Shown piece after piece: positions 50,432 through 64,000 of a stretch of DNA of 64,000 nt. Source of the DNA: an uncultured Dokdonia sp. Lineage in GTDB: Bacteria > Bacteroidota > Bacteroidia > Flavobacteriales > Flavobacteriaceae. The position numbers were made by a program, and so were the translations under genes. Location of the stretch: NCBI RefSeq assembly GCF_947492535.1, contig NZ_CANLNH010000010.1, positions 62,001 through 126,000 on the forward strand. Reading direction: 5' to 3'. How positions within the stretch are numbered: the stretch's first letter is position 1; every line of letters begins with the position of its first letter. The notes beneath the pieces were generated by a model. That model was not told the origin of the DNA and did not search any database. It was given only the letters and a program-made list of their open reading frames with translations.

Positions 50432-51532
50432 ATGTCGCAAACCGCAAATTCACTTACAAGCTTAGCGCTCCAAAAGTTTAAAAAAAACTTCTGGGGCGTT
50501 TTGAGTTTATTCTATATCGTGCTTTGTGGTATTATTGCATTATTTGCATATATAATTGCCCCTGATAATAGTCAGAATGCAAATCAAATGCATCTTTCTA
50601 TACATTCTAGAGGTCCTGGTTTTACCGTTTCTATGCTTACAATTCCATCTGCTATTGAAGATGACTCTTTTAAGGTGTCTTCTCTCTTTTTTGGGAAACG
50701 TAATAATGATACTGAAATTCCTATCACGTCCTACACTATAGAAAATGATGAGATTGTGTATACACCATATGCAGGAGATGATATAGAAGGGATTTCTAAG
50801 CGTTTAAAGATGGAAGAGGGGGTAGATGTATACGCTTTCGCGAAAGCGCATATAGATTCACAAAAATTTATATTGGGTACAGACAAATACGGTAGAGACT
50901 TATTGAGTAGGATGTTTGTAGGAGCGCGTATTTCTTTTTCGATTGGGTTTGTTGCAGTTTTTATTTCACTTCTTATAGGTGTGCTTATGGGAGCATTGGC
51001 AGGGTATTTTGGAGGAAAAGTAGATACCGCAATTATGTGGATTATTAATGTCACTTGGTCTATTCCTACATTACTACTGGTAATTGCAATTACACTTGCT
51101 TTGGGAAAAGGATTTTGGCAGGTATTTATAGCCGTTGGACTCACGATGTGGGTTGAAGTTGCTCGTGTGGTCCGAGGACAAGTAATGGGTGTAAAACAAA
51201 TGCAATATGTCACAGCAGGAAAAGCACTTGGGTATACACATGGACGTATTATTATTAGACATATACTACCTAATATTATGGCGCCTCTTATCGTGATTTC
51301 TGCAGCCAATTTTGCGGGTGCGATTCTTATTGAAAGTGGCTTAAGTTTTTTAGGAATAGGTGCACAACCTCCAATGCCTAGTTGGGGCGCAATGATTAAA
51401 GATCATTATAGTTATATTATTTTAGGAAAACCATATTTAGCTGTTATTCCTGGGCTTGCTATTATGTTACTCGTCATGGCATTTATGTTGGTTGGGAATG
51501 CCTTGAGAGATGCGCTAGATGTGAAGAGTTAA
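50432..51532 (+). CDS. Oligopeptide-type ABC transporter permease (DppC/OppC-like)
   Basis: The 366-residue permease has a first helix at about 22-44, a periplasmic loop of about 130 residues, then the binding-protein-dependent transport core (ISFSIGFVAVFISLLIGV, helices to 360) with the EAA-type loop VTAGKALGYTHGRIIIRHILPN. Partner permease, ATPase and binding protein are absent from the window, so they must be encoded elsewhere. The palindrome encodes AFAKA in the periplasmic loop just before the core. Peptide transport is the family role. Confidence 0.88.
   Translation: MSQTANSLTSLALQKFKKNFWGVLSLFYIVLCGIIALFAYIIAPDNSQNANQMHLSIHSRGPGFTVSMLTIPSAIEDDSFKVSSLFFGKRNNDTEIPITSYTIENDEIVYTPYAGDDIEGISKRLKMEEGVDVYAFAKAHIDSQKFILGTDKYGRDLLSRMFVGARISFSIGFVAVFISLLIGVLMGALAGYFGGKVDTAIMWIINVTWSIPTLLLVIAITLALGKGFWQVFIAVGLTMWVEVARVVRGQVMGVKQMQYVTAGKALGYTHGRIIIRHILPNIMAPLIVISAANFAGAILIESGLSFLGIGAQPPMPSWGAMIKDHYSYIILGKPYLAVIPGLAIMLLVMAFMLVGNALRDALDVKS
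50834..50847. repeat. Palindrome, copy 11
   Basis: In the ABC permease gene, AFAKA phase; right flank is GCGCA instead of GCGTA. Confidence 0.95.
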
Positions 51533-51930: not shown

Positions 51931-52113
51931 TTAATCAATACACATTCCATCCATACAGCATCCTCTTCCATCTGCGCTATTGGGATTACCAAAGCATGGG
52001 CATCCATCACTATCTGATGTACAAAGGAAGATATTACATCCTATGGTTCCTCCATTAATTGATTTTAACTGACCTACATTTAATGGTTTTCCTAATTTTT
52101 CTAATTTTTTCAT
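51931..52113 (-). CDS. Cys-rich GG-leader peptide A1
   Basis: A 60-residue peptide when started at ATG 52113 (MKKLEKLGKPLNVGQLKSIN, then GG). A longer frame from 52167 would cross the leader element and is unlikely. The core of 38 residues has seven Cys, including CPC and a CC pair (GCNIFLC, GCPCFG, GRGCCMDGMC). Conserved pseudoknot A lies about 29 bases upstream. Confidence 0.85.
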   Translation of the reverse strand: MKKLEKLGKPLNVGQLKSINGGTIGCNIFLCTSDSDGCPCFGNPNSADGRGCCMDGMCID

Positions 52114-52142: not shown

Positions 52143-52178
52143 ACCTTGATCCATTAAAGACACTCAAGGTATGTGTCT
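52143..52178 (-). ncRNA. Candidate leader pseudoknot A
   Basis: Minus strand, 5' to 3': AGACAC, AT, ACCTTGA, GTGTCT, TTAATGGA, TCAAGGT. Stem 1 AGACAC/GTGTCT and stem 2 ACCTTGA/TCAAGGT interlock as an H-type pseudoknot. Both stems pair perfectly. Confidence 0.7.
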
Positions 52179-52363
52179 ATCCTTGCAAGAATATTTTTAA
52201 TGTTTTTTTAGTAATTTGATAGTCAGAATGTTATTGGGGTCGGGATTTTTACCTAAAAATAATCAAAAATGTATTTAAATTATTGATAATCTGAATTTTA
52301 ACATTAAAACGCTTTGAATTTTAACTTTTAAGTGTAAAAGTTGCCAGTATTAACCTAAATAGA

Positions 52364-52392
52364 AAAGCGAGCTATTACTAATAGCTCGCTTT
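52364..52392 (-). terminator. Terminator of peptide unit B
   Basis: A 13-bp perfect stem AAAGCGAGCTATT (52364-52376) / AATAGCTCGCTTT (52380-52392) with a 3-base loop, followed by TTTTC on the minus strand. Confidence 0.85.
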
Positions 52393-52449
52393 GTTTAGAT
52401 TATAAAAACCTAAATCATTGAATATGTTTATATAAGAGAATTACTTCGC

Positions 52450-52665
52450 TTATTCGCAGACACAAATTGAATCTACAGGGTTTGATGCTATTTGACAAAC
52501 AAGCCCTGAATTCCCTGGACAACTTAATGGGTGTCCTGGGCCTCCAATACATGGTTGGTTTTTCCATGGATGTGCTAAACAGTGACTACCATTTCTTCCT
52601 CCTTCGATTGATTTTTGCTCAGTTTTGCTTAAAGCCTTCCCTAAATTTGAAATGTTTTTTAACAT
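52450..52665 (-). CDS. Cys-rich GG-leader peptide B2
   Basis: A 71-residue peptide with leader MLKNISNLGKALSKTEQKSI then EGG. The core of 46 residues is His/Pro/Gly-rich with five Cys (SHCLAHPW, QPCIGGPGH, LSCPGNSGLVCQI, SICVCE has two). It follows B1 by 31 bases in the same transcript and precedes the unit B terminator. Confidence 0.87.
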   Translation of the reverse strand: MLKNISNLGKALSKTEQKSIEGGRNGSHCLAHPWKNQPCIGGPGHPLSCPGNSGLVCQIASNPVDSICVCE

Positions 52666-52696
52666 AATTGAATTTTTTTAATGAATAATGTCTTTT

Positions 52697-52918
52697 TTAA
52701 TGACCTTCACAACAAGCGTGATTTAAAGAAGCATCTACGCAATTACAAGACATTCTAGACGTACATCTTCCCCAATGATTTAAACATTGTGCTTGTGGAT
52801 TGCATCCTCCGTTTGTACCAGGCCAATTTTCTTCACCAACAGGTAAACGCCCTCCTAAAGTTTCTTTTTGCTCTGCCTTATTTAAGGTCTTTCCTAAATT
52901 TGAAATGTTTTTTAACAT
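52697..52918 (-). CDS. Cys-rich GG-leader peptide B1
   Basis: A 73-residue peptide with leader MLKNISNLGKTLNKAEQKET then LGG. The core of 47 residues has seven Cys (GGCNPQAQCLNHWGRCTS, SCNCVD, ACCEGH). Pseudoknot B ends 26 bases before the ATG. The unit lies directly behind the VKOR-thioredoxin gene on the same strand, separated by a terminator-like hairpin. Confidence 0.87.
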   Translation of the reverse strand: MLKNISNLGKTLNKAEQKETLGGRLPVGEENWPGTNGGCNPQAQCLNHWGRCTSRMSCNCVDASLNHACCEGH

Positions 52919-52944
52919 AATTAATTATTTTACAATTATTTTTG

Positions 52945-52979
52945 CTGTGAACATTTAGAGACACTCACAGATTGTGTCT
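52945..52979 (-). ncRNA. Candidate leader pseudoknot B
   Basis: Minus strand, 5' to 3': AGACAC, AAT, CTGTGA, GTGTCT, CTAAATGT, TCACAG. Stem 2 pairs perfectly although its sequence differs from copy A. Confidence 0.7.
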
Positions 52980-53004
52980 ATTCTTCGCGAGAGAATATTG
53001 TTCA

Positions 53005-53033
53005 ATTAATAGCCCTCATAAAGGGCTATTAAT
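53005..53033 (-). terminator. Hairpin between the VKOR-Trx gene and peptide B1
   Basis: A 12-bp perfect stem ATTAATAGCCCT (53005-53016) / AGGGCTATTAAT (53022-53033) just after the stop codon of the upstream gene. Confidence 0.75.
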
Positions 53034-53034
53034 T

Positions 53035-54654
53035 TTATATTGCTTCTTGAAATTGTGATGAAAAAGGAATCTGTGCTTTTAGAGAAGCTTCGTGTAACTC
53101 TTCTATAAAATATGTTAGGTCTTCACGTGCATACGCAGAAGGAAATGAATAACCATTTATTAAAATTTCTGGTGTAAAATTGATTCCATGATAAGCACTC
53201 CAATTTTGTTGATGAATTAATGTTTGATGGTATGCATCTTCTTGCTTACATGTTCCCCAAGTAGATAGCCAAGCATCAGGGTTCATTCCTCCATAAATGT
53301 CATGCATTGCTTTTAAACATGGTTCTTGTCCTTCTCGATGATATATTTCTAAAAGACGACTTGTGATTTTATAAATAGTGGTCTCTCTGTCATCTGTATT
53401 TACATTAATTCGGATTGTAATAGCGACTAGGTCGGAATACTTTTTTAGTATGTCTTCTAATATGCTATGTACAGGTTTACAATGTCCACAGAAAGGACTT
53501 GTAACTATTACAAGAGATAAAGGAGCGTTTACATTACCAAATACAATTTCTGATGCATTATCTATAGAAGTCTGTTTTTTGGGTGCTTGTGTAAGTAATG
53601 TCTCAAAGAGGGTAAAGTTTCTTTTAAACTTTGTAAAATCAATAGTAGCTTTTTTTAGTTTTTTAGATGCCAGGAATATAGGTTCGATAAACATCCAGGT
53701 TAATAATGTGAGTGTATATACAATTCCTATAATTAGGAGTGCGTTGATTTGTACGATATCGCTTATTTGGGAAATACCTATTCCTGTTTGTGTTAGTAAT
53801 ATACCTACAATAACAAGGCATAAAGGGCACCACGCTTTCGCGAAAGCGTATTGATAATATATAGAATAGAGGGTGATAGGTGTAGCGATAAAACTCACTA
53901 TATATAAAGGCGTAATTGCATACTTACATATGGATAAGACGACAACAGAACATGAAAGTCCTATAAAATATAGCAAACTTACATCACTGAGTTTTATTCC
54001 AAATACTGTAGCTCCATCAGAACTTAATACGGTACTACAATTTTTGGAGGTATTTGTATCTGAGCAGAATGCATTTCCTATTTTGGTTTCTATACCTAAC
54101 TGTTGTTTTATGATCGCAACACTTATAAAAACTCCTAGAAGTGCTACAATACCATACCCAATTGTTCCAGTAGTAAATTGAGCTTGATAGATCAGGCCTA
54201 AAAGCATGAACCCTAAACCTGCAAATAGACCTGTTCTCAAATATGTCGTTTTTTTGTTTTTTACAGATGGACGATCTGTTTCTTCTTTTTCTACAGCGAC
54301 GATAATACCTGTAAAGTGTTGTAAGAACTCTTGTGTAGCGTATTCTTTTCTGTCTTTAGCACTATAATATGTAATTAAGGAATTTTCTTTTTTTACTACA
54401 ATGCCAAATAACTGATCTTCTTCAATTTTCATACAGCTAAGAAATACGGTAGGAAGTTGGTCTAATATCTCTTCTGTTGCAGGAACAACTAGTGCGAGAT
54501 GATCTATATTAAAATGAGTAAGGACACCCGTAATAGCATGAAGACTTGGATATGAAGGATGACTCTGAATTTGAAATGCTAATTCTTCCTTATCAAAAGC
54601 AATTTTATTTAATTTTAATAATTGCGCTACTTGGTATATAACAGAATTGTTCAA
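53035..54654 (-). CDS. C39-like / VKOR / thioredoxin fusion, copy 1
   Basis: This 539-residue membrane protein has an N-terminal ~105-residue C39 peptidase-like domain (IQSHPSYPSLHAITGVLTHF) in which the catalytic Cys position is lost, a VKOR domain with about five helices (loop Cys pair in AFCSDTNTSKNCSTVLSS; quinone-site CxxC Cys276/Cys279 in WCPLC) and a periplasmic thioredoxin domain with Cys389/Cys392 (PFCGHC). VKOR-Trx fusions make disulfides, passing electrons to quinone. The C39-like part probably docks GG leaders. The palindrome encodes AFAKA immediately before Trp275-Cys276. It lies between the CHAT gene and peptides B. Confidence 0.9.
   Translation of the reverse strand: MNNSVIYQVAQLLKLNKIAFDKEELAFQIQSHPSYPSLHAITGVLTHFNIDHLALVVPATEEILDQLPTVFLSCMKIEEDQLFGIVVKKENSLITYYSAKDRKEYATQEFLQHFTGIIVAVEKEETDRPSVKNKKTTYLRTGLFAGLGFMLLGLIYQAQFTTGTIGYGIVALLGVFISVAIIKQQLGIETKIGNAFCSDTNTSKNCSTVLSSDGATVFGIKLSDVSLLYFIGLSCSVVVLSICKYAITPLYIVSFIATPITLYSIYYQYAFAKAWCPLCLVIVGILLTQTGIGISQISDIVQINALLIIGIVYTLTLLTWMFIEPIFLASKKLKKATIDFTKFKRNFTLFETLLTQAPKKQTSIDNASEIVFGNVNAPLSLVIVTSPFCGHCKPVHSILEDILKKYSDLVAITIRINVNTDDRETTIYKITSRLLEIYHREGQEPCLKAMHDIYGGMNPDAWLSTWGTCKQEDAYHQTLIHQQNWSAYHGINFTPEILINGYSFPSAYAREDLTYFIEELHEASLKAQIPFSSQFQEAI
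53834..53847. repeat. Palindrome, copy 12
   Basis: In VKOR-Trx copy 1, AFAKA phase, directly before the active-site WCPLC. Confidence 0.95.
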
Positions 54655-54702
54655 GGGCTTCTTTTTTGTGTTCCCTTTGTAGTTCCAGCGAATTGAATTT
54701 TG

Positions 54703-57390
54703 TTACCCTAAACTTTTTCTTTTTCTTTTTTTGAAGTATAAAATAATGATAACGAGTAGTATAAGAATTGCTGAAATGCTAAAAATAAGTGCTGTATTGT
54801 TAATGTATAAGGAGCTTTCTGCTTCCCCTATTAAAATAAAAGGAGCCCAGTAATATGGAGATTGGTTAGATAAATTACTTGAAGATATATAATCCAGTTT
54901 TGCTTTATATAAGGCATCAGATTTTGAATTTCCTTCTTTTAGATATGTATAAAAAGAAGTCATCACTTTTGAAGTAGCCTTATCATTCGTTTCCCATAAA
55001 CTAGATACAACCGTATTTGCTCCTGCATAAAAGAAACCTCTCGCTAAACTCATCACACCTTCCCCAGGAGCAATATCGCCTATAGTCGTATTACAAGCAC
55101 TAAGTACGATAAGTTCTGCATTGTTTTGATAGGTGTATAATTCATGAGATTCTAACGTTGTATCATAAAAAGCAATCCACGGATTTGAAGAGGCATCTGC
55201 ATGTGTTGCTAAATGTATGATCTCACTTGATTGTGATTTTGTAAGAAAGTTATCTTTTGTAGCTGTAGTTTCTAGAAAAGAGCGCCCACCTATAATACTT
55301 TCTATTGCAGCAATCTCCTTTCTGCTTTTTTGCAAAGGGGTTAAATTATTGTCTGAAAAGTTGATAGGAGCAAAGCCAGTAAATTTAGTATCATGAGTTC
55401 GCTGTATGGCTTCATTTCTTTGTGAAAAAGATAATGAATATGAGTAATTTATCTTGTGTGATTTAATTAAGTATTCTGAGCTGTTTTTAGAAGTTAAAAA
55501 GGAATCAAAAGGGACATATTGCAATTCTCCATCAGGAATAATAAGCAACTCCTTTCCTTTAATAGCTGTTTTAATATGTTGAGTAGGGAATAATATATTA
55601 AATAAGGCATGTGCAGAATCTTTATAACTTTCTTGTTCTGCTTCTGTTTCAAAAGGTTTAGAAATTGTTGTACGATATTGGAAGATATGCTCTTTTAATG
55701 TATTTATATCCTGAACTTCAAATAGCTCTATTGTAGTAGCATCTATATAAATACCATATATGATTTCATCTCCACTTTCTGGCTTGCCCCATATGTATGA
55801 AATGATGGCGATATCTGGAGGTAGTGATTTTTGTACTTGATTTATGGTTGTGAGTGTATTATCTAATTTTTTCTTTTTATATAAAGGAAACGCTAGCGAA
55901 ATAGAGTCTTGTAATTTCTGATAACTTGTTTTAAGATCAAAGAGTATTTCCTGTTGTTTCTTTATTTTTTCAGTGTCTTTTGTTTCAGAAATGGTATTTT
56001 CTAATGCTAGGATTTCCCTTTTGTAGATCAATTGTTTTTTTTGGAGCGCATCAGGGAGTTTTTTACTCTTCACTTTTGTGTCAATTTCTGAAGTAAGTAA
56101 AAGTGCTTTATTCTTTTCAATAAAATAAAATGCTACTTCGGGTTTGTTAAGTTTTTTACATACCCGAACCCCTTGTGCATATAATGAAGAGGCCTTTCTT
56201 CTCCAAAGTAATTGAGATCTCTCCTCTTGACTTTCTTCTTCTATAAGATCAATTAAGGTATCTGCAATCAATATATTATCTAAGGCTAGAGAAAGTTCGT
56301 TTTGATCTTTATTCTCTTCATACAGATCTTCTAAGATTTCTGCTTTCTCTTTAAAAGCTCCAAAGATTTTTATTTTTTCTGGAATTTCGCTGAGTTCATT
56401 TTGAGTGAGTACAGTTATTTTTTTATTCTCTATACCAGTACTTATGGTAAGAGACTCTTGAATGTAATCTAAGGCTTTACTTGCGTTTTTGCGATACCTA
56501 TAGTATTGACTTAGATGATGTCTTGAAACTGATTGATTAAGTGCATCTGGACATTCTTTAATTGTTTTTTCTATATAATAGAGTGCACTATCCTTTTTAG
56601 CGATATTATATAGGTCTGATAGATTTCCATAAATATCACATGTATAATCATTAATACCTTCTTGATCGAGATATTTTAAATTTTTTAAGTGATAGTCTCT
56701 AGCATTTTCAAAATCTAACGTAGCTTCTTGTGTGTAAAATGTTGCATATCCTGTATATATATAATATTTGTCTTCAGGCGATATGGTTGTTTTCTCTTCA
56801 AGAGCTAGGGCCTTGTCTAGCATCTCTTTTTTCTTGAGAAGGCTCTCTGTGCTACCTTGCTGATGGTATACTACAGAAAAGTTAATATATTGCTTGACAA
56901 GATCTCTATAATTGTTTTGTTTTTCAAGAAGTGAAATCCCTTTTTTAAAATAATCAATGGCTCTATAGTAATCACCTTGAGCACTGTAATAGAGACCTAA
57001 TCTAGAGTAAGATTGTGCTACTCTAGAAGGATTTATATTTTGTTCTATAATGGCTAGATATAATTCATTACTTTTTTCATAGTCATTTTGTCGGCTATAA
57101 AAAAAGCCTAAACGAAATTGTAAAGTAGCATACTGTTGCGTATTCCTTTCTGATGATGGAAACTTATCTAAAGCAAGCTTTCCATACCGAACTGCTTCTC
57201 CAATATGGGTGCCATAAATTCGTGTAGAAAAATGAGAAGCGATATCACTTAAACTTTTATAATCATTCGCATTTTCGCATACTGATAGTAAGCTGTCTAC
57301 AGTAGTTTTATATGCATATCCTTGATCTTTATAAGAAGAGAGATATACATCATAATTGTTTTGGCCTTGTAGATTGCTTGTTATAAACAA
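54703..57390 (-). CDS. TPR-CHAT protease with membrane anchor
   Basis: About 895 residues: TPR repeats (about 30-330), a coiled region (about 410-500), a CHAT caspase-like domain (about 590-850) and a C-terminal membrane helix with a basic tail. The catalytic dyad is present: His730 (HLATH) and Cys766 (LSACN), counted from the TTG at 57390. The in-frame sequence upstream of TTG encodes a clear signal peptide (RLYNLKSLYVLVLWLCGLF, ending GQ) without any ATG, GTG or TTG; a CTG at 57444 is the best true start. So the catalytic part is likely periplasmic. The gene overlaps or abuts the lipoprotein gene before it. Confidence 0.85.
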   Translation of the reverse strand: MFITSNLQGQNNYDVYLSSYKDQGYAYKTTVDSLLSVCENANDYKSLSDIASHFSTRIYGTHIGEAVRYGKLALDKFPSSERNTQQYATLQFRLGFFYSRQNDYEKSNELYLAIIEQNINPSRVAQSYSRLGLYYSAQGDYYRAIDYFKKGISLLEKQNNYRDLVKQYINFSVVYHQQGSTESLLKKKEMLDKALALEEKTTISPEDKYYIYTGYATFYTQEATLDFENARDYHLKNLKYLDQEGINDYTCDIYGNLSDLYNIAKKDSALYYIEKTIKECPDALNQSVSRHHLSQYYRYRKNASKALDYIQESLTISTGIENKKITVLTQNELSEIPEKIKIFGAFKEKAEILEDLYEENKDQNELSLALDNILIADTLIDLIEEESQEERSQLLWRRKASSLYAQGVRVCKKLNKPEVAFYFIEKNKALLLTSEIDTKVKSKKLPDALQKKQLIYKREILALENTISETKDTEKIKKQQEILFDLKTSYQKLQDSISLAFPLYKKKKLDNTLTTINQVQKSLPPDIAIISYIWGKPESGDEIIYGIYIDATTIELFEVQDINTLKEHIFQYRTTISKPFETEAEQESYKDSAHALFNILFPTQHIKTAIKGKELLIIPDGELQYVPFDSFLTSKNSSEYLIKSHKINYSYSLSFSQRNEAIQRTHDTKFTGFAPINFSDNNLTPLQKSRKEIAAIESIIGGRSFLETTATKDNFLTKSQSSEIIHLATHADASSNPWIAFYDTTLESHELYTYQNNAELIVLSACNTTIGDIAPGEGVMSLARGFFYAGANTVVSSLWETNDKATSKVMTSFYTYLKEGNSKSDALYKAKLDYISSSNLSNQSPYYWAPFILIGEAESSLYINNTALIFSISAILILLVIIILYFKKRKRKSLG

Positions 57391-57430
57391 TCCACAAAGC
57401 CATAAAACTAGTACGTATAATGATTTTAAA

Positions 57431-57883
57431 TTATATAGGCGCAGAAATACAAGTATTTGAAAATGTTGTTAATCTTAAATTAGGGTCTGTTGGTTTTACA
57501 ATATCTGGTTTACAATCCATGTCAGCAGGACATGCTCCTCTCACATGCCATATTTCTGCATTTGGATTAGTTGTACATTGTGTGATAGATACCATTCTGT
57601 TACAATATGGATTTCTAATAGCATTTTTTTCTTGTTTTGTAGAGCTTGGATCATATTCTACAAATATGTAATAAAAGTTATAACTACCGTCAGATATAAG
57701 TAAATTTGGATCTCCACAATTTGTCTGTACTCTGTTGTGTTGATCGGTTTGGTTTTTAGAAACACTGAGAATAGAATTTGTAGTTACTTGCTGTTCTATG
57801 TTTTCTTCAGAATCAACACTACATGATACCGTTAAAATAAAAATTAAAAGAACTGTTAAGGGCTTAAAAAATGTACTTTTCAT
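57431..57883 (-). CDS. Cys-containing lipoprotein, paralog 1
   Basis: The start is set at ATG 57883 (MKSTFFKPLTVLLIFILTVS, then C), giving a proper lipobox. 150 residues. The mature part has a conserved block shared with 58086-58499: YEPSSTKQ-type motif, KNAIRNPYC, RMVSITQC, AEIWHVRGACP, CKPDIVKPTDPNLRL and a final NTC. Several Cys could form disulfides. Unknown family. It precedes the CHAT gene in the same transcript. Confidence 0.8.
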   Translation of the reverse strand: MKSTFFKPLTVLLIFILTVSCSVDSEENIEQQVTTNSILSVSKNQTDQHNRVQTNCGDPNLLISDGSYNFYYIFVEYDPSSTKQEKNAIRNPYCNRMVSITQCTTNPNAEIWHVRGACPADMDCKPDIVKPTDPNLRLTTFSNTCISAPI

Positions 57884-58085
57884 AAAAAAGAATTTAGGGT
57901 TAAAATTAATATTCATTGTGTAGTTACATAACCCTTTTGTTTGTTACCCAGTAAATGTAAAAGTTTAATTTTAAGAACTAGTACTTCTTCTGGTGTTTTG
58001 TTTTACAGTAATCAAGTATCACTCATCCCTACCATATTTATTACTAAGATAGATATCAAAAAATAAATTAGGTATTGTATTCAAA

Positions 58086-58499
58086 TTATTGACATGTATT
58101 TGCAAATGTTGCTAGTCTTAAATTTGGATCTGTAGGTTTCACAATATCTGGTTTACATTCCATATTAGTAGGGCATATACCTCTTACATGCCATATTTCA
58201 GCATCTCTATTATTTGTACAAGGTGTGATGGATACCATTCTATCACAAAATGGATTTCTAATAGCGTTTCTTTCTTGTTTTGTAGAACTTGGTTCATATG
58301 CTACAAGTATGTAGTAAAAGTTGTGATTACCATCAACAATGAGTATATCTGGATCTGCACAGTTTTGACCTGAAAAAGAGTTGTAAACAGTATTTGCAGT
58401 GGTTAACGATTCTACGTTTTCTTCAGAGTCAACACTACACGATAATGTTAAAATAAGGATAAAAAGAGTAGTTAGGGATTTAAAAAATGTACTTTTCAT
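58086..58499 (-). CDS. Cys-containing lipoprotein, paralog 2
   Basis: The start is at ATG 58499 (lipobox LTLSC). 137 residues, very similar to paralog 1 over the whole mature part (NAIRNPFCDRMVSITPC, AEIWHVRGICPTNMECKPD, ATFANTC). The upstream leader of about 45 bases is also duplicated. It diverges from the sigma factor gene across about 115 bases. Confidence 0.8.
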   Translation of the reverse strand: MKSTFFKSLTTLFILILTLSCSVDSEENVESLTTANTVYNSFSGQNCADPDILIVDGNHNFYYILVAYEPSSTKQERNAIRNPFCDRMVSITPCTNNRDAEIWHVRGICPTNMECKPDIVKPTDPNLRLATFANTCQ

Positions 58500-58614
58500 A
58501 AAAAAGGTTTTAGGGTTAAAATCAAGTAGCAATTACTGTGTAGTTGCATAACCCTTTTGTTTGTTACCTAGTAAATATAAAAGATTATTTTTGTTTATCT
58601 AATTAATCACGCGA

Positions 58615-59178
58615 ATGCCTGAAAATACGGTTTACCTCAAAGCTTTATTACAAAATGATTCTAAAGTAATTACAGAAATATATGCTTCTATTTTTCCTAA
58701 AGTAAAAAAGTTTGTGATTCAAAATAAAGGACAACAGGCAGATGCTGAAGATATTTTTCAGAAAGCATTGATGCAAATTGCTGTGCGGTATCGCAGAGAG
58801 CCTTTTGAAATTAAAAGCAGTTTTGAAGCTTTTCTATTTACAGCGTGTAAAAATTTATGGAGAAGAGAATTAAATAAAACCAAAACAAGGGTAACAGATG
58901 ATGGAGTGATGGAACTTCAAAGTGAAGAAAAAGATATGGCACTTGCTACTTTAGAACAGGAACGATGGGAGCTATTTGCAGAAAAACTGGAATTAATCTC
59001 TGAAAACTGTAAAAAAGTACTTCAACTATTTTTTGCAAAAGTATCTTATAGTGAAATTGTAAAAAGGCTAGGGTACAACTCTGAGACTGTGGCAAGACAG
59101 CGCGTATTTAAATGCAAAACAAAACTCATGAAAACCATCACTAGTGATCAACGTTATAATTCCTTAAAAGAATTATGA
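58615..59178 (+). CDS. ECF-type RNA polymerase sigma factor
   Basis: The 187-residue sigma-70 family protein has region 2 at about 25-95 (ADAEDIFQKALMQIAVRYRR, FLFTACKNLWRREL) and region 4 at about 125-180 (LELISENCKKVLQLFFAKVS, YSEIVKRLGYNSETVARQRV). The stop overlaps the next start by four bases (ATGA), tying it to the anti-sigma-like gene. It is the likely specific activator of this gene group. Confidence 0.9.
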   Translation: MPENTVYLKALLQNDSKVITEIYASIFPKVKKFVIQNKGQQADAEDIFQKALMQIAVRYRREPFEIKSSFEAFLFTACKNLWRRELNKTKTRVTDDGVMELQSEEKDMALATLEQERWELFAEKLELISENCKKVLQLFFAKVSYSEIVKRLGYNSETVARQRVFKCKTKLMKTITSDQRYNSLKEL

Positions 59179-59975
59179 ATCCAGAGGAAGAAAATACATA
59201 TATAGAAAACTATTTATTAGGCAAATTACCTCAAGAAGAAGAGATTGCTGTACAAAAACGGTTGTCTGATGATATACGCTTTCGCGAAAGCGTACTCTTG
59301 CAGAAACAACTTCTTGAATCACTCTCTGAAAATTCATGGAGCTATGCTAAACATGTAGATGCAAAACGTCTCAATGAGTATGAGAAATTATATAAAAGCG
59401 AGGAAACAGCAAAGCTAAAAACAACCATAACACAAGCGCAAAGCAATTATCAAAATAGTGCTTCAAAAAATAAACGATCTTGGGTATACTATATAAGTGC
59501 TGCTCTTATAGCAATCATGATAGGTATAGCTGTATTGATGCCAAAAAAGCAAAATTCTCAAGAACTATATGTAGATTATTATGAAACTTCAGACATACCA
59601 TCATTAGTATCGCGTGGAGGTGAAGATGATACCTCACTTATAGATGCCGAGCGTTATTTTGAAGAAGGTAATTACAATAAAGTACTTACTATTCTTACAC
59701 CTAAAGTAGCAACGGTTACAAAAAACAAAGCAAGTATACTCCTTTACAAAGGGATTTCAGAAATGGAATTAAATCAATTTGAAAAAGCACATGCTACCTT
59801 TGATCAACTTAGTACTAGTGATTTGATTGATGCACCTATGGCAATATGGTATAAGGCATTATTGTATTTAAAAATGGATGACTCTGAAAATGCAAAAGTG
59901 TTACTTAGACAAATTACTATGTCTTCTACTAATTATAAATATACCGAAGCAAAAGAGCTATTAGAACAATTATAA
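59175..59975 (+). CDS. Anti-sigma-like membrane protein with TPR domain
   Basis: The 266-residue protein has an N-terminal part typical of Bacteroidota anti-sigma proteins (IENYLLGKLPQEEEIAVQKR), a single membrane helix at about 103-121 and periplasmic TPR repeats (about 155-260). It could hold the sigma factor in the cytoplasm and sense a periplasmic signal by the TPR part. The palindrome encodes FRES near residue 36 where relatives usually have an acidic helix. Cysteine is absent. Confidence 0.85.
   Translation: MNPEEENTYIENYLLGKLPQEEEIAVQKRLSDDIRFRESVLLQKQLLESLSENSWSYAKHVDAKRLNEYEKLYKSEETAKLKTTITQAQSNYQNSASKNKRSWVYYISAALIAIMIGIAVLMPKKQNSQELYVDYYETSDIPSLVSRGGEDDTSLIDAERYFEEGNYNKVLTILTPKVATVTKNKASILLYKGISEMELNQFEKAHATFDQLSTSDLIDAPMAIWYKALLYLKMDDSENAKVLLRQITMSSTNYKYTEAKELLEQL
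59278..59291. repeat. Palindrome, copy 13
   Basis: In the anti-sigma-like gene, FRES phase. Confidence 0.95.
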
Positions 59976-60083
59976 TTTCAACAACAATTTGTTGATTTTT
60001 AGATAGATACTCTTAAAAAAAAATATTTTTTCTTTTTTAGGGGTAAGAAATATTGTTGTCTGGAACATATAGGTGTTTACAAA

Positions 60084-61685
60084 ATGCATCTAAGTATGGA
60101 CGAATTAGTTTTTCGGCTTTTAACAATATCACAAATCACTTCATTCTCAAAAGAAGATATCTATCTTCAGTTACTATCTCATGCTGATTTTCCAAGTATT
60201 AGAGCGATTACAGATACATTAGATTATTTTGAAATTGAAAATATTGCAGCGAATGTTCCAAAAGATGCATTGTCACAACTTCCAAAATTATTTTTAGCGC
60301 TTGTTGAAAAAGAAGGAGAGACAGAATTAGTATTAGTAAAGCAATTACAAAAAAGAGTTCAAATAAGAACTATCCAGAATAAAAAGCAGCAGCTTTCAAT
60401 TCAAGAATTCTCTTCTCAATGGACAGGGACTATCATAGCAATAGAGCAAGAAGAGAAAACAACAGTATCCGTATTTAAATTGCCTGATTTTACGCCAATA
60501 GCACTGGTAAGTACATTCGTATTTGCTGTTGTAACTGCTTTGCTATTCATACCATCAATAACATATATCATATATGTTTTTCTTACCCTAGTAGGAGGTT
60601 TTGTAAGCTATTTGATTAGTAAAGAAAGTATAGGTGTTAAAGATGCTATTACATCAAAAGTGTGTAATGCATTATCATCAAAAATAGATAGTTGCAGGAC
60701 TGTTATTACATCAAAAGAAGGAAGAGTCAACAAAGCGTTTGGTTTGGGAGACGCTTCACTAATCTACTTTTCAAGTTTATTTTTTACAATAGTTTTTTTA
60801 GGGGTTCACACGAGTATTTTATTAGCAATATCCATAGGATCATTGCCTATAGTAGTGTACTCTATATATCTTCAGAAGGCACGCATAAAGCAGTGGTGCG
60901 GTTTATGTTTGTTGACTTCTGTAGTATTAATATCCCAATTTGGAACATTATTAAGAATGTTTTCAGGTTGGGATTTTTCTTTGTCTTATGCTTTTAAACT
61001 ACTTGTTTTAAATATGATGCTGACCTTTTTATGGGCATACATAAAACCTATAATAGTAAAGAATAAAGAATTGCTTATAACAAAGAAAAATTATTTCTCT
61101 TTTAAAAGAAACAAAACCTTCTTTACAGCAGCACTTCAAGAGGATGCCATTACAAATATGCAGACCCTTCCTAAAAAAGCACAACTGTATTTTGGAAATA
61201 GAGAGGCTCCTATACAAATAACCGCATATAGCAATCCATTATGTGGGTATTGTGTTGCTGCATTTGAATTATACGATAGATTATTAACGCAATTCCCAAA
61301 AGATGTAGGAATACAATTGATTTTTAATACCCCAAATGATCCTGAAAATCCATCTACAGAAATTGCAAAACAAGTCCTAGAAATCTATCATAAAGACTCA
61401 AGAAAAGGTTTTGAAGCATTAAAGGATTGGTTCTTAGATAGAGATGTGCAACGCTGGCAAGAAATTTATGGATATGGAAACTCAATGCTTTTGATGGATG
61501 ATCGTATCCTAGAAATGCATCGTGATCTAGCAATTCAAAATAATATTCATTATACACCAGAAACATTAATTGGAAATCAAAAGTTTCCTAAAAAATATTA
61601 TGAATATGAAGATCTCTTGCTTTTTGTTGAGGAGATAAAAGAGTCATCAAATTTAAAAATAAAACAAAGTGTAGAAGTTTTATGA
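60084..61685 (+). CDS. C39-like / VKOR / thioredoxin fusion, copy 2
   Basis: The 533-residue paralog of 53035-54654 has the same order. The C39-like domain (LLSHADFPSIRAITDTLDYF) again lacks a catalytic Cys. The VKOR part keeps the loop Cys pair (VCNALSSKIDSCRTVITS) and WCGLC, and the thioredoxin part has LCGYC. It follows the sigma/anti-sigma pair by 108 bases and is followed by a hairpin, pseudoknot C and the peptide at 61799. The matching arrangement around both copies points to the peptides as substrates. Confidence 0.9.
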   Translation: MHLSMDELVFRLLTISQITSFSKEDIYLQLLSHADFPSIRAITDTLDYFEIENIAANVPKDALSQLPKLFLALVEKEGETELVLVKQLQKRVQIRTIQNKKQQLSIQEFSSQWTGTIIAIEQEEKTTVSVFKLPDFTPIALVSTFVFAVVTALLFIPSITYIIYVFLTLVGGFVSYLISKESIGVKDAITSKVCNALSSKIDSCRTVITSKEGRVNKAFGLGDASLIYFSSLFFTIVFLGVHTSILLAISIGSLPIVVYSIYLQKARIKQWCGLCLLTSVVLISQFGTLLRMFSGWDFSLSYAFKLLVLNMMLTFLWAYIKPIIVKNKELLITKKNYFSFKRNKTFFTAALQEDAITNMQTLPKKAQLYFGNREAPIQITAYSNPLCGYCVAAFELYDRLLTQFPKDVGIQLIFNTPNDPENPSTEIAKQVLEIYHKDSRKGFEALKDWFLDRDVQRWQEIYGYGNSMLLMDDRILEMHRDLAIQNNIHYTPETLIGNQKFPKKYYEYEDLLLFVEEIKESSNLKIKQSVEVL

Positions 61686-61690
61686 AAATA

Positions 61691-61718
61691 AAAGAGCCTA
61701 GCGGTAACTAGACTCTTT
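61691..61718 (+). terminator. Hairpin between VKOR-Trx copy 2 and the peptide
   Basis: AAAGAG-c-CTAG (61691-61701) pairs with CTAG-a-CTCTTT (61708-61718). The T tract is short, so read-through into the peptide gene is possible. Confidence 0.7.
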
Positions 61719-61736
61719 AAACATTCTTGCAAGGAT

Positions 61737-61772
61737 AGACACAAACTGTGAGTGTCTCAAAATGTTCACGGT
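61737..61772 (+). ncRNA. Candidate leader pseudoknot C
   Basis: AGACAC (61737-61742), AA, ACTGTGA (61745-61751), GTGTCT (61752-61757), 8-base loop, TCACGGT (61766-61772). Stem 2 has one G-U pair. A preceding ATTCTTGCAAGGAT is also self-complementary and identical in copy A. Confidence 0.7.
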
Positions 61773-61798
61773 AAAATTAATTATTAAATTTTACAATT

Positions 61799-61960
61799 AT
61801 GTTAAAAAACATTTTAGAATTAACGGGAACTTTAGAATTAAAAAAAGAAGCGCAAAAAACAATTAACGGAGGAGCAAGCAGAGAATGTAATAAACCACCA
61901 ATTTGTCCTGTAGGGGCTGTATGGGATGCATATCAGTGTAGATGTCTTACTGACTGCTAA
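61799..61960 (+). CDS. Cys-rich GG-leader peptide C
   Basis: A 53-residue peptide with leader MLKNILELTGTLELKKEAQ then KTINGG, and a 28-residue core with five Cys (RECNKPPICPVG, YQCRCLTDC) ending in Cys. The ATG lies 26 bases after pseudoknot C, with an AT-rich initiation region also present before the 62389 peptide. Too short for usual gene callers, but its family pattern is clear. Confidence 0.87.
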   Translation: MLKNILELTGTLELKKEAQKTINGGASRECNKPPICPVGAVWDAYQCRCLTDC

Positions 61961-61990
61961 AAACATGTCATTATTCATGATATAGTAATG

Positions 61991-62023
61991 GAGTAAGCGG
62001 GTTTAGACTTGCTTACTCTTTAT
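61991..62023 (+). terminator. Terminator of peptide C
   Basis: GAGTAAGC (61991-61998) pairs with GCTTACTC (62011-62018), followed by TTTATT. Confidence 0.8.
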
Positions 62024-62326
62024 TAAAACATGTTGTCTTTTATATATGTAGCAAATGTTTCTATTATGATACTTACGCTTCTTGCGTTACGATAGAAATA
62101 AATACTAACATCATATTTAGGTAATTCAGAATTCTTCTTATAAATCTTAAAAAGGAAGTAGGCGAGTACTTTTTACAAGTTATATGTCTACTAAAATTAA
62201 GAGTATATAGTTTAATGACTGTGTGTCAGATCATTTTAATCACTAATAGTACAAAACGAATACCCTGTACATTCTGATTGGTTTAAATTGCTATGAACGA
62301 GATTTAAGCATAGAATTCATAAAGGA

Positions 62327-62362
62327 AGACATAGGCTGTGAGTGTCTTTAAGTGTTCATGGC
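62327..62362 (+). ncRNA. Candidate leader pseudoknot D
   Basis: AGACAT (62327-62332), AG, GCTGTGA (62335-62341), GTGTCT (62342-62347), 8-base loop, TCATGGC (62356-62362). Stem 1 has one G-U pair and stem 2 has two. The peptide ATG follows after 26 bases. Confidence 0.65.
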
Positions 62363-62388: not shown

Positions 62389-62631
62389 ATGTTAAAAAAC
62401 ATTTTAAATCTAGAAGGAGCTCAACAATTAAATAAAACAGAGCAAAAAAGTATTAAAGGTGGAGTCTTTACTATCGGAGGTGTACCTATTGGTTCTACTT
62501 GTGATTATAATTCATTGCAAGCGTGTTTAAACGTATGTACAGCTCCAGGCACAAGTTGTGCGGCTTGTGCAGATACAAATGCTACACCAGGAACCTACGA
62601 ATGTAGAGCAGGTGGCTTTACAATTGGATAA
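62389..62631 (+). CDS. Cys-containing GG-leader peptide D
   Basis: An 80-residue peptide with leader MLKNILNLEGAQQLNKTEQ then KSIKGG. The longer core of 55 residues has six Cys (STCDYNSLQACLNVC, TSCAACAD, YECRAG) and begins and ends with the similar pieces FTIGG and FTIG. A terminator follows. Confidence 0.88.
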   Translation: MLKNILNLEGAQQLNKTEQKSIKGGVFTIGGVPIGSTCDYNSLQACLNVCTAPGTSCAACADTNATPGTYECRAGGFTIG

Positions 62632-62689: not shown

Positions 62690-64000
62690 TTAATGCAATG
62701 GTTGTTTTTTACGCTTTCGCGAAAGCAAAAGAAGCAATACTATAATAAGACTACCTACAATGATATAATACCAAAACCAATCTTTTTGTGGTAAGGGGTC
62801 CGTGTCTCCAATTAAAACTAATGAAGCCCAATAATAAGGTGCTACTTCAGATCCAGTGTGGTTTTTTAAGTAATCGAGTTTTGCTTGATGTAAAGAAGAA
62901 GATTTAGAGGCACCCTCTTGTAAATTTTTATAAAAGGCGTCTACAATATATTGTGTAGACTTATCGTCTACATTCCATAACGAAGAAATAGTACTTTGTG
63001 CGCCTCCATAAAAAAAGCCTCTAGCAAGACTCATGGTCCCTTCTCCAACGACCATTTCTCCTGCATTAGAATTACATGCACTTAGCATGACAAGAGAAGC
63101 ATTGTTTTGACGTAAACTAATGTCGTCTAGAAAAAGTTTACCATCGCTAAAAGCAATCCAAGGAGCAATAGAATCATTGGCATCTGCATGTGTAGCTAGA
63201 TGAATCAGGTTTGATTTTCCTAATTCATTAAAGAAAGCTTCTTGAGAAGCTTCCTGTTTAGAAAATATATGCCCATTAAAATAGGAGTCTAATGATGCTG
63301 TTTCTTTACTACTTTCTGTAAGCTTTGGTAAATTGAGATTGGTAAACTCTACTGGAGCAAATGCAGAAAAAGTAGTGTTGGTATTTAGGATATTATTTCT
63401 ATTAATCTCATGAAATGCGTAATTGTATTTATACCCTATTTTATGATGATATATGAGGTAGTCATTCTCAGAAGTGTTTGGAGATACTATAAGGCTTTCA
63501 AAAGGAATTTTACTCAAATAATCGTCAGGTATGATCGTAAGCTCTTTAGACTCTATGAGAGATCTTACAGAAGGCGGAAATAATGTTTTATACACCTCAT
63601 AAGACAATTGTTGATACGTTTTAATATCCTTCTCAGTTTTAAAAGGAATGGTGTTTTTTAAAAGCAATTTTTCTACTTTTAAAGCAAAATCTTGAAGTTT
63701 TTCTATAGGAAAGAAAACAGCTTCCTTTTTTGTAATCACAATACCATATCCAGTATTTGTATTAGGGTAAATACCAAACCCATCATCACTAGCGATATGA
63801 TACTCTAAAAGAGCGTGAGAAGGATCTATTTGTTGTTGGATTTCAGCAATAGAGAGACTACTTAATGTATATGAAATAGTATTGTCAGATGATAGGTTTA
63901 TTTTTTTTCGAACTTTTTCTAAGGAGTCTATCGTTTCTTTAAGGAGTGAAATATCATTGGTTCCATCTCTTTGTAAACTTTTAATTTTATTTTGTAATGT
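62690..64000 (-). CDS. CHAT protease with membrane anchor, N-terminus outside window
   Basis: An open frame runs from the window edge to 62690. A GTG at 63739 is internal, since the upstream frame is open and similar to the other CHAT protein (SSLSIAEIQQQIDPSHALLE). The CHAT domain keeps His in HLATHADAND and Cys in LSACNSNAGE, followed by GEGTMSLARGFFYGGA. A C-terminal membrane helix and a basic tail close it; the palindrome encodes LSRK in that tail. At least 436 residues; upstream TPR repeats are expected beyond the edge. Confidence 0.87.
   Translation of the reverse strand, partial: TLQNKIKSLQRDGTNDISLLKETIDSLEKVRKKINLSSDNTISYTLSSLSIAEIQQQIDPSHALLEYHIASDDGFGIYPNTNTGYGIVITKKEAVFFPIEKLQDFALKVEKLLLKNTIPFKTEKDIKTYQQLSYEVYKTLFPPSVRSLIESKELTIIPDDYLSKIPFESLIVSPNTSENDYLIYHHKIGYKYNYAFHEINRNNILNTNTTFSAFAPVEFTNLNLPKLTESSKETASLDSYFNGHIFSKQEASQEAFFNELGKSNLIHLATHADANDSIAPWIAFSDGKLFLDDISLRQNNASLVMLSACNSNAGEMVVGEGTMSLARGFFYGGAQSTISSLWNVDDKSTQYIVDAFYKNLQEGASKSSSLHQAKLDYLKNHTGSEVAPYYWASLVLIGDTDPLPQKDWFWYYIIVGSLIIVLLLLLSRKRKKQPLH
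62713..62726. repeat. Palindrome, copy 14
   Basis: In the second CHAT gene, LSRK phase, encoding part of the basic tail after the membrane helix. Confidence 0.95.

Follow-up and report, generated by a model that had tools for sequence, protein, structure and literature searches.

The window analysed here is a 64,000-nucleotide (nt) stretch of DNA from an uncultured Dokdonia sp. (contig NZ_CANLNH010000010.1, positions 62,001 to 126,000), in which a small structured element stands in four copies ahead of genes for peptides with a GG leader. An earlier note, made from the letters alone, had described these copies as a conserved H-type pseudoknot in the leaders of four peptide units. We found that they almost certainly belong to a genuine family of RNA pseudoknots, and that the element is used mainly on GG-leader, cysteine-rich secreted peptides. 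The features of the two peptide clusters in the window, with peptide lengths in amino acids (aa), are as follows.

51931..52113, minus strand: GG-leader Cys-rich peptide, 60 aa, with its ATG at 52113.
52143..52178, minus strand: H-type pseudoknot copy 1, AGACAC-ATA-CCTTGA-GTGTCT-TTAATGGA-TCAAGG-T, 29 nt 5' of the ATG of the 60-aa GG-leader peptide.
52179..52192, minus strand: hairpin P0 of copy 1, ATTCT-TGCA-AGGAT, assigned (as for the other P0 hairpins listed) from its sequence and the P0 statistics below.
52450..52665, minus strand: second GG-leader peptide of the copy 2 unit, 71 aa, 31 nt past the 73-aa peptide and without an element of its own.
52697..52918, minus strand: GG-leader peptide, 73 aa, under copy 2.
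52945..52979, minus strand: H-type pseudoknot copy 2, AGACAC-AAT-CTGTGA-GTGTCT-CTAAATGT-TCACAG, 26 nt 5' of the ATG and beginning 55 nt past the stop of the C39-VKOR-thioredoxin gene.
52980..52996, minus strand: P0 hairpin of copy 2, ATTCT-CTCGCGA-AGAAT.
53035..54654, minus strand: C39-like, VKOR and thioredoxin protein immediately 5' of copy 2, with Pfam PF07884 and PF13462 over cut-off and PF03412 (C39) below it (18.0 against 22 bits).
60084..61685, plus strand: C39-like, VKOR and thioredoxin protein immediately 5' of copy 3, with Pfam PF07884, PF13462 and PF03412 over cut-off.
61691..61718, plus strand: terminator-like hairpin, judged by eye, between the C39-VKOR stop and the P0 of copy 3.
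61723..61736, plus strand: P0 hairpin of copy 3, ATTCT-TGCA-AGGAT.
61737..61772, plus strand: H-type pseudoknot copy 3, AGACAC-AAA-CTGTGA-GTGTCT-CAAAATGT-TCACGG-T, 26 nt 5' of the ATG and beginning 51 nt past the C39-VKOR-thioredoxin stop.
61799..61960, plus strand: GG-leader peptide, 53 aa, under copy 3.
62327..62362, plus strand: H-type pseudoknot copy 4, AGACAT-AGG-CTGTGA-GTGTCT-TTAAGTGT-TCATGG-C, 26 nt 5' of the ATG and with no clear P0.
62389..62631, plus strand: GG-leader peptide, 80 aa, under copy 4.

The four copies share one compact layout. Re-reading the sequence placed them at the coordinates and on the strands given in the earlier note, and the gap from the end of the element to the ATG is 29, 26, 26 and 26 nt for copies 1 to 4, as the claimed range of 26-29 bases requires. 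The stem 1 arms described there, AGACAC and GTGTCT, hold for copies 1-3; copy 4 begins AGACAT, so one of its pairs with GTGTCT is U-G. The inner pairing described for stem 2 is kept, but the outermost pair claimed (column 9 with 36) showed no covariation in the larger set below. Stem 2 is therefore 6 base pairs (bp), and loop 1, which does cross stem 2 and is short, is fixed at 3 nt and not 2-3. Stem 1 is also 6 bp, there is no loop 2, and loop 3, the 8-base loop across stem 1, stands as described. This geometry is not rare by itself: a loose scan of the window for H-type folds with 6+6 bp gave 38 rows, 8 of them at the four copies.

The repetition of the sequence and the retention of pairing in the genome of origin are beyond chance. 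There were 6 exact matches to AGACAYNNNNNNTGAGTGTCT, and 24 with up to two mismatches (including 4 that read an already counted place in the reverse direction) compared to 10 for the reversed pattern. The further copies have the same layout and lie 5' of more GG-leader peptides and of one lipoprotein-like gene. Among 12 copies from this genome, 97.4% of cells in the proposed pairs were paired and 7 of the 13 pairs varied on both sides; shuffles gave a mean of 3.3 both-side changes and reached 7 in 1 of 500, and register-shifted controls gave 0-1, with 24-58% of cells paired.

A covariance model, R1, was built with only stem 2 encoded as structure, and a search of flavobacterial genomes with it, the check that the earlier note had proposed, extended the family beyond the four copies. 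R1 had 22 matches at E<=10 in the genome of origin, 17 of them at E<=0.1. In samples that overlap one another, it matched 7 of 18 genomes of the genus (E<=0.1), 26 of 299 Flavobacteriaceae (E<=0.001), 9 of 296 genomes of the order, one of them outside the family, and 8 of 395 genomes of the phylum, all Flavobacteriaceae. An exact pattern scan of named genomes found at least 80 loci, with names including Tenacibaculum, Aquimarina, Dokdonia, Kordia, Bizionia and Winogradskyella; the loci listed bear names of Flavobacteriaceae, mostly marine, except for one record labelled "Bacteroidia bacterium". Viral contigs had zero exact matches to one pattern.

Covariation across the family supports two interleaved stems, each backed by compensatory change. 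From 180 distinct R1 matches, 135 fit one layout and 126 distinct ungapped sequences were used; rows were assigned by a parse that rewards pairing and so is biased towards structure. With or without weighting at 90% identity, 11 of the 13 proposed pairs ranked within the top 15 of 630 column pairs; with weighting at 80% identity, 9 remained among the first 15 and 11 among the first 20. In two larger alignments, which overlap and were fitted to stem 2, 98.0% and 97.6% of cells were paired, with both-side changes in 10 of 12 and 11 of 12 pairs. Because R1 itself contains the stem 2 pairs, we also took an independent set with a pattern that does not constrain three of the stem 2 pairs and is unbiased for them: all three were formed in 71 of 88 distinct elements (mean of 30, maximum of 42 in 2000 shuffles). 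Against a null simulated on a tree, stem 1 and stem 2, each scored as a sum over its pairs, both exceeded all 200 simulations. Divergent copies, from genomes with no R1 match at E<=0.001, retain both stems in a different sequence, as in GGACCG/CGGTCC, AGACCA/TGGTCT, and AGACAG/CTGTCT with TCAAGA/TCTTGA. Four unpaired loop bases, A7, A24, A25 and G28, are 97-99% conserved.

The pairing is that of the sense RNA strand. Among imperfect pairs G-U outnumbers A-C by 44:4 for stem 1 and 54:5 for stem 2; the three columns left free in the pattern set show a weaker bias, 19:5. Such an excess fits sense RNA and not duplex DNA; the many copies between genes of one strand (below) point the same way. The RNA structure proposed in the earlier note is upheld by the covariation, by the pattern set and by the G-U bias.

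Many copies carry an additional hairpin, P0, immediately 5' of stem 1, of the type ATTCT-loop-AGAAT. A P0 stem of at least 5 bp was present in 156 of 256 elements, compared to 49 (maximum of 57 in 30 rounds) in dinucleotide shuffles and 63-84 at control offsets. Its letters vary while the pairing is kept (ATTCT/AGAAT, ATCTT/AAGAT, ACAAA/TTTGT), and its common loops hold the self-complementary TCGCGA or TGCA. An 8-bp palindrome upstream of the element was considered as a DNA operator and dropped: the sequences on either side of it form a hairpin whose letters vary, and we therefore read it as P0. Separately, a palindromic stretch, CTTTCGCGAAAG, recurs in the window at about 62711-62727 and inside open reading frames (ORFs) 50731-51309, 53378-53854 and 59245-59358; it reads as AFAKAY in spurious ORFs, and its core, TTCGCGAA, is found in P0 too.

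The RNA between the element and the start codon is of nearly constant length and almost free of G. For 244 copies with an ATG ORF, the distance from stem 2 to the ATG was 20-34 nt in 233; the remaining 11, at -5 to 17 or at 53, 68 and 90 nt, may be wrong ORFs. The 233 spacers have a mean length of 26.2 nt (standard deviation 2.1), are 90% A+T and 2.1% G, and include none with GGAG, AGGA or GAGG, that is, no Shine-Dalgarno-like motif. The A content peaks in the stretch from -13 to -11 and again at -3, reaching 0.88 at -12 and 0.86 at -3. Excerpts of a ribosome profiling study of Flavobacterium johnsoniae (PMC6847099) indicate that these positions matter for initiation there, and both peaks agree with the determinants given in them. 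The anti-Shine-Dalgarno sequence is sequestered in ribosomes of this bacterial class, according to excerpts of PMC9976891.

The genes under the element form mainly one class. In 226 of 256 contexts there was an ORF of 30-139 aa at 20-34 nt with GG, GA or GS within residues 11-46; the others had an ORF of at least 140 aa at 20-34 nt (3), another distance or start codon (12), no ORF (11) or a short ORF without the motif (4). The 230 short ORFs have a median of 63 aa and 6 Cys, and 4 lack Cys. The three longer ORFs (L024, L085, L216) are of 162-191 aa, lie at 23-29 nt and look lipoprotein-like by eye. In 21 neighbourhoods, a loose rule that also counts chance ORFs found 127 GG-like ORFs, 62 of them with the element, one falsely (L309). 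Counted by eye, 40 peptides of the class in these neighbourhoods lack an element, and 28 of the 40 lie within 60 nt of a preceding peptide. A second peptide family of the same genome (MKKSLKxLTLNKEVISNL...GG) is without the pseudoknot. Protein clusters recurring in at least 6 of the 21 neighbourhoods were C39 proteins (17), a 429-aa protein that is HlyD-like by eye (11), and CHAT-TPR, ECF sigma and 266-aa families (6 each); domain searches covered the window proteins.

The element is often intercistronic and is co-inherited with C39-VKOR-thioredoxin genes. A same-strand gene stops within 600 nt upstream of 184 of 240 elements, and the element starts within 40 nt of such a stop in 54 and within 120 nt in 107, which leaves little room for a separate promoter in many copies. 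Relatives of the C39-VKOR-thioredoxin protein occur in 40 of 299 family genomes: 22 of the 26 with the element versus 18 of the 273 others (Fisher P 1e-18, genomes treated as independent). The region downstream was examined for 53 of 56 C39-VKOR matches, and 38 had a recognised GG peptide. An automatic rule, which fires on 35 of 760 shuffled upstream regions, assigned the pseudoknot to 27 of these 38 loci (G213 doubtfully), DUF805b, an Rfam RNA discussed below, to 3, and neither to 8; in three of the 8 (G292b, G179, G170) a pseudoknot with other spacing is seen by eye. G217, one of the 15 unscored loci without a recognised GG peptide, also carries the pseudoknot. This location, often after a C39-VKOR-thioredoxin gene, the G-poor A/U spacer, the gene class and P0 are additions to the earlier note.

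In two C39-VKOR loci with neither element, L334 and L381, the GG peptides are of the MKKxxSKFSDKLL...GG type and share GGATTTGCAAATCA about 39-53 nt before the ATG, a possible third type of leader.

Based on these results, we believe that the pseudoknot is quite probably a cis-acting post-transcriptional element, with translation initiation as its most likely level of action. We infer that the element is transcribed and that it acts on translation; location, spacing and start-site signals favour translation over other functions as far as the sequence can tell. The mRNA would carry, in order, P0 in many copies, a compact H-type knot with conserved A7, A24-A25 and G28, about 26 nt of A/U RNA, and an ATG whose surroundings have the flavobacterial initiation signals (no Shine-Dalgarno, A-rich from -13 to -11, A at -3). 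The knot would then lie immediately beyond the footprint of the 30S subunit and present its conserved loops to a shared partner, perhaps a protein or small molecule or else the platform of the 30S subunit, such that initiation is raised or gated. The element would serve mainly the first peptide of a unit, and followers within a few tens of bases are probably translated by coupling. The use of DUF805b, a cis-regulatory RNA, in the same slot at 3 loci counts in favour. For this reading as a whole (P0, knot and A/U spacer controlling initiation through a shared partner on GG-leader, Cys-rich peptides), we estimate a probability of about 0.6.

Several observations weigh against it. P0 is absent in many copies, including copy 4 of the window. 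Pair 2-20 is almost invariant and, like 9-36, gives no support to the structure, and in the tree-simulated null, whose tree came from the same columns, only 11-34 and 12-33, both in stem 2, were individually significant. Long intergenic regions precede some copies and could hold a promoter that escaped detection. A at -6, a positive signal in F. johnsoniae in the excerpts of PMC6847099, is not enriched, and T is 0.63 there. Five of the 38 C39-VKOR loci with a GG peptide have neither pseudoknot nor DUF805b, and 12 of the 40 element-less class peptides sit at least 72 nt from another peptide. Finally, the constant distance to the ATG leaves room for a role in stability.

The most serious alternative, possible yet clearly less probable than initiation control, is mRNA processing and stability. 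The polycistronic transcript would be cut in the AU-rich stretch before P0, P0 and the knot would shield the new 5' end, and the peptides would then outnumber their processing and export proteins. The intercistronic position fits this, as does the AU-rich AACAATATT ahead of P0, and some loci lie right after a hairpin, judged by eye, that could protect the upstream 3' end. However, the narrow spacing to the ATG and the nearly G-free spacer would be left unexplained, and the conserved loop bases suggest a specific partner. The two ideas may combine, so that their odds are not exclusive, and stability is possibly an additional level of control.

A riboswitch, in which a small molecule bound by the knot would decide whether the start site is masked or free, is unlikely, and it overlaps with the preferred reading of initiation control if the shared partner is a small molecule. 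Near-invariant unpaired A7, A24, A25 and G28 would suit an aptamer, and small H-type aptamers are of similar size. Against this, the targets are mainly one class of peptides and no metabolic pathway, and the spacer is almost without G.

We consider it very improbable that the element is a two-site protein operator or a promoter in duplex DNA, the alternative that the earlier note had kept. AGACAC/GTGTCT is strongly conserved, and 113 of 258 upstream stretches have a perfect 8-bp palindrome at -12 or -11. But stem 2 changes its letters while the pairing stays, imperfect pairs are biased to G-U over A-C, and many copies have scant room for a promoter. The one promoter consensus tested, TANNTTTG, was not enriched in the 200 nt upstream (29 versus 34 expected). 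Conservation free of strand bias and located at a promoter, as far as that one consensus shows, would mark a DNA operator and was not seen. Least probable of all is that the element, as folded single-stranded DNA, serves in recombination that shuffles peptide cassettes; the multiple copies heading tandem peptide units would fit this, and so would the G-T excess, but the narrow distance to the ATG and the differing stem sequences among copies speak against it.

Between its two peptide clusters, at 54703-59975, the window also encodes a protein of CHAT-TPR type, a pair of small ORFs that resemble each other and are lipoprotein-like, an ECF sigma factor and a protein of 266 aa; the sigma and CHAT types turn up near elements of other genomes too.

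With its many copies and no Rfam match, this structured RNA family is a marker of a class of secreted cysteine-rich peptides in marine flavobacteria. It offers a handle for finding such peptides and is probably a key to their control, and it provides a test case for how messages without a Shine-Dalgarno sequence are selected in Bacteroidota.

Among known RNAs, small H-type folds give the most general comparison. In the leader of T4 gene 32 mRNA, which is under translational control, unstructured A/U-rich RNA separates an H-type pseudoknot from the start codon. The element resembles it in having a knot and an A/U stretch ahead of the start codon, and differs in that the T4 case is autoregulation by gp32 in a phage and the element occurs in many paralogous copies. 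PreQ1-I and other small H-type riboswitches have a compact fold and conserved loop bases, as the element does; they differ in serving metabolic genes, and the element itself had no match to any Rfam riboswitch model. A SAM riboswitch (RF00162) was seen in a permissive Rfam scan at L002 834-955 (minus strand), near one copy of the element.

The Rfam comparison suggested in the earlier note reached no family at the gathering threshold for the element in the window or in 7 neighbourhoods, and permissive scans (12 element loci; 121 bases) gave nothing near it but matches of unrelated families below threshold. No such element was described in the literature surveyed, a partial coverage that included excerpts of PMC2864571. 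The nearest known kind is the DUF805b RNA (Rfam RF02914, clan CL00115, type cis-reg). RF02913, tried as DUF805, is pemK and gave no result. DUF805 motifs are reportedly described in a paper in Nucleic Acids Research.

DUF805b is alike in kind and distinct in sequence. It is about 35 nt long and, by our reading of its matches, also H-type, with a stem 1 of 4 bp, loop 1 of 4 nt, stem 2 of 3 bp, loop 2 of 5 nt and loop 3 of 10 nt. Its core, GGAA..CCGAAAA..GAGUAGG, is absent from the base frequencies of the element. The element gave no match over the DUF805b cut-off in the window, the 12 loci, the 121-base permissive scan or the 7 neighbourhoods, and R1 had 0 matches at E<=0.1 on 30 DUF805b loci. 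In the 7 neighbourhoods Rfam found DUF805b and no other family, at four places, all in L315 and at other peptides. DUF805b is also wider, in 176 of 299 genomes (128 over cut-off; 0 of 14 controls) compared to 26 of 299 for the element at E<=0.001, with 11 matches in the genome of origin.

The two RNAs correspond in position. A sequence pattern found the DUF805b core in 24 of 32 loci scanned, giving 23 distinct places with an ORF (one being both L333 and L365); DUF805b ends 18-27 nt before the ATG in 21 of them and at 56 and 14 nt in the others. Both RNAs stand roughly 20 nt ahead of the start codon, in many cases that of a gene whose product was judged by eye to be secreted, and DUF805b heads GG leaders other than those of the element and many longer proteins. 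Many of its products look secreted by eye; those of L353, L363 and L367 do not. At L332, L333, L315 9882-9917 (minus strand) and L341-L370 it lies mostly 18-27 nt ahead of start codons, and the genes that follow often encode GG peptides, lipoproteins or further proteins of Flavobacteriaceae that appear to be secreted. In one 20-kb locus of the genome of origin, DUF805b lies 20-22 nt before four peptides, three of the second class, the new element is on two first-class peptides, and some other GG-like ORFs have neither.

DUF805b also fills the slot after C39-VKOR in G150, G282 and G196. In G150 it overlaps the final codons of the C39-VKOR frame, which places it on that transcript there if the gene is expressed. 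At L333 3392-3478 (minus strand) DUF805b covers the last codons (EAEAEKL and stop) of a C39-VKOR frame, one stretch serving as coding sequence and leader RNA. The two RNAs do not cross-match, and their likeness is one of position, with no established kinship; the nearly equal distance to the start codon, often before apparently secreted peptides or proteins, gives a lead on the function of DUF805b. We offer as a speculation, which we hold to be rather doubtful, that the knot and, independently, DUF805b are ribosome-docking modules that replace the hidden anti-Shine-Dalgarno, initiation enhancers at the upstream edge of the 30S subunit that would have evolved twice, be interchangeable at one gene position, and give secreted peptides high or gated translation.

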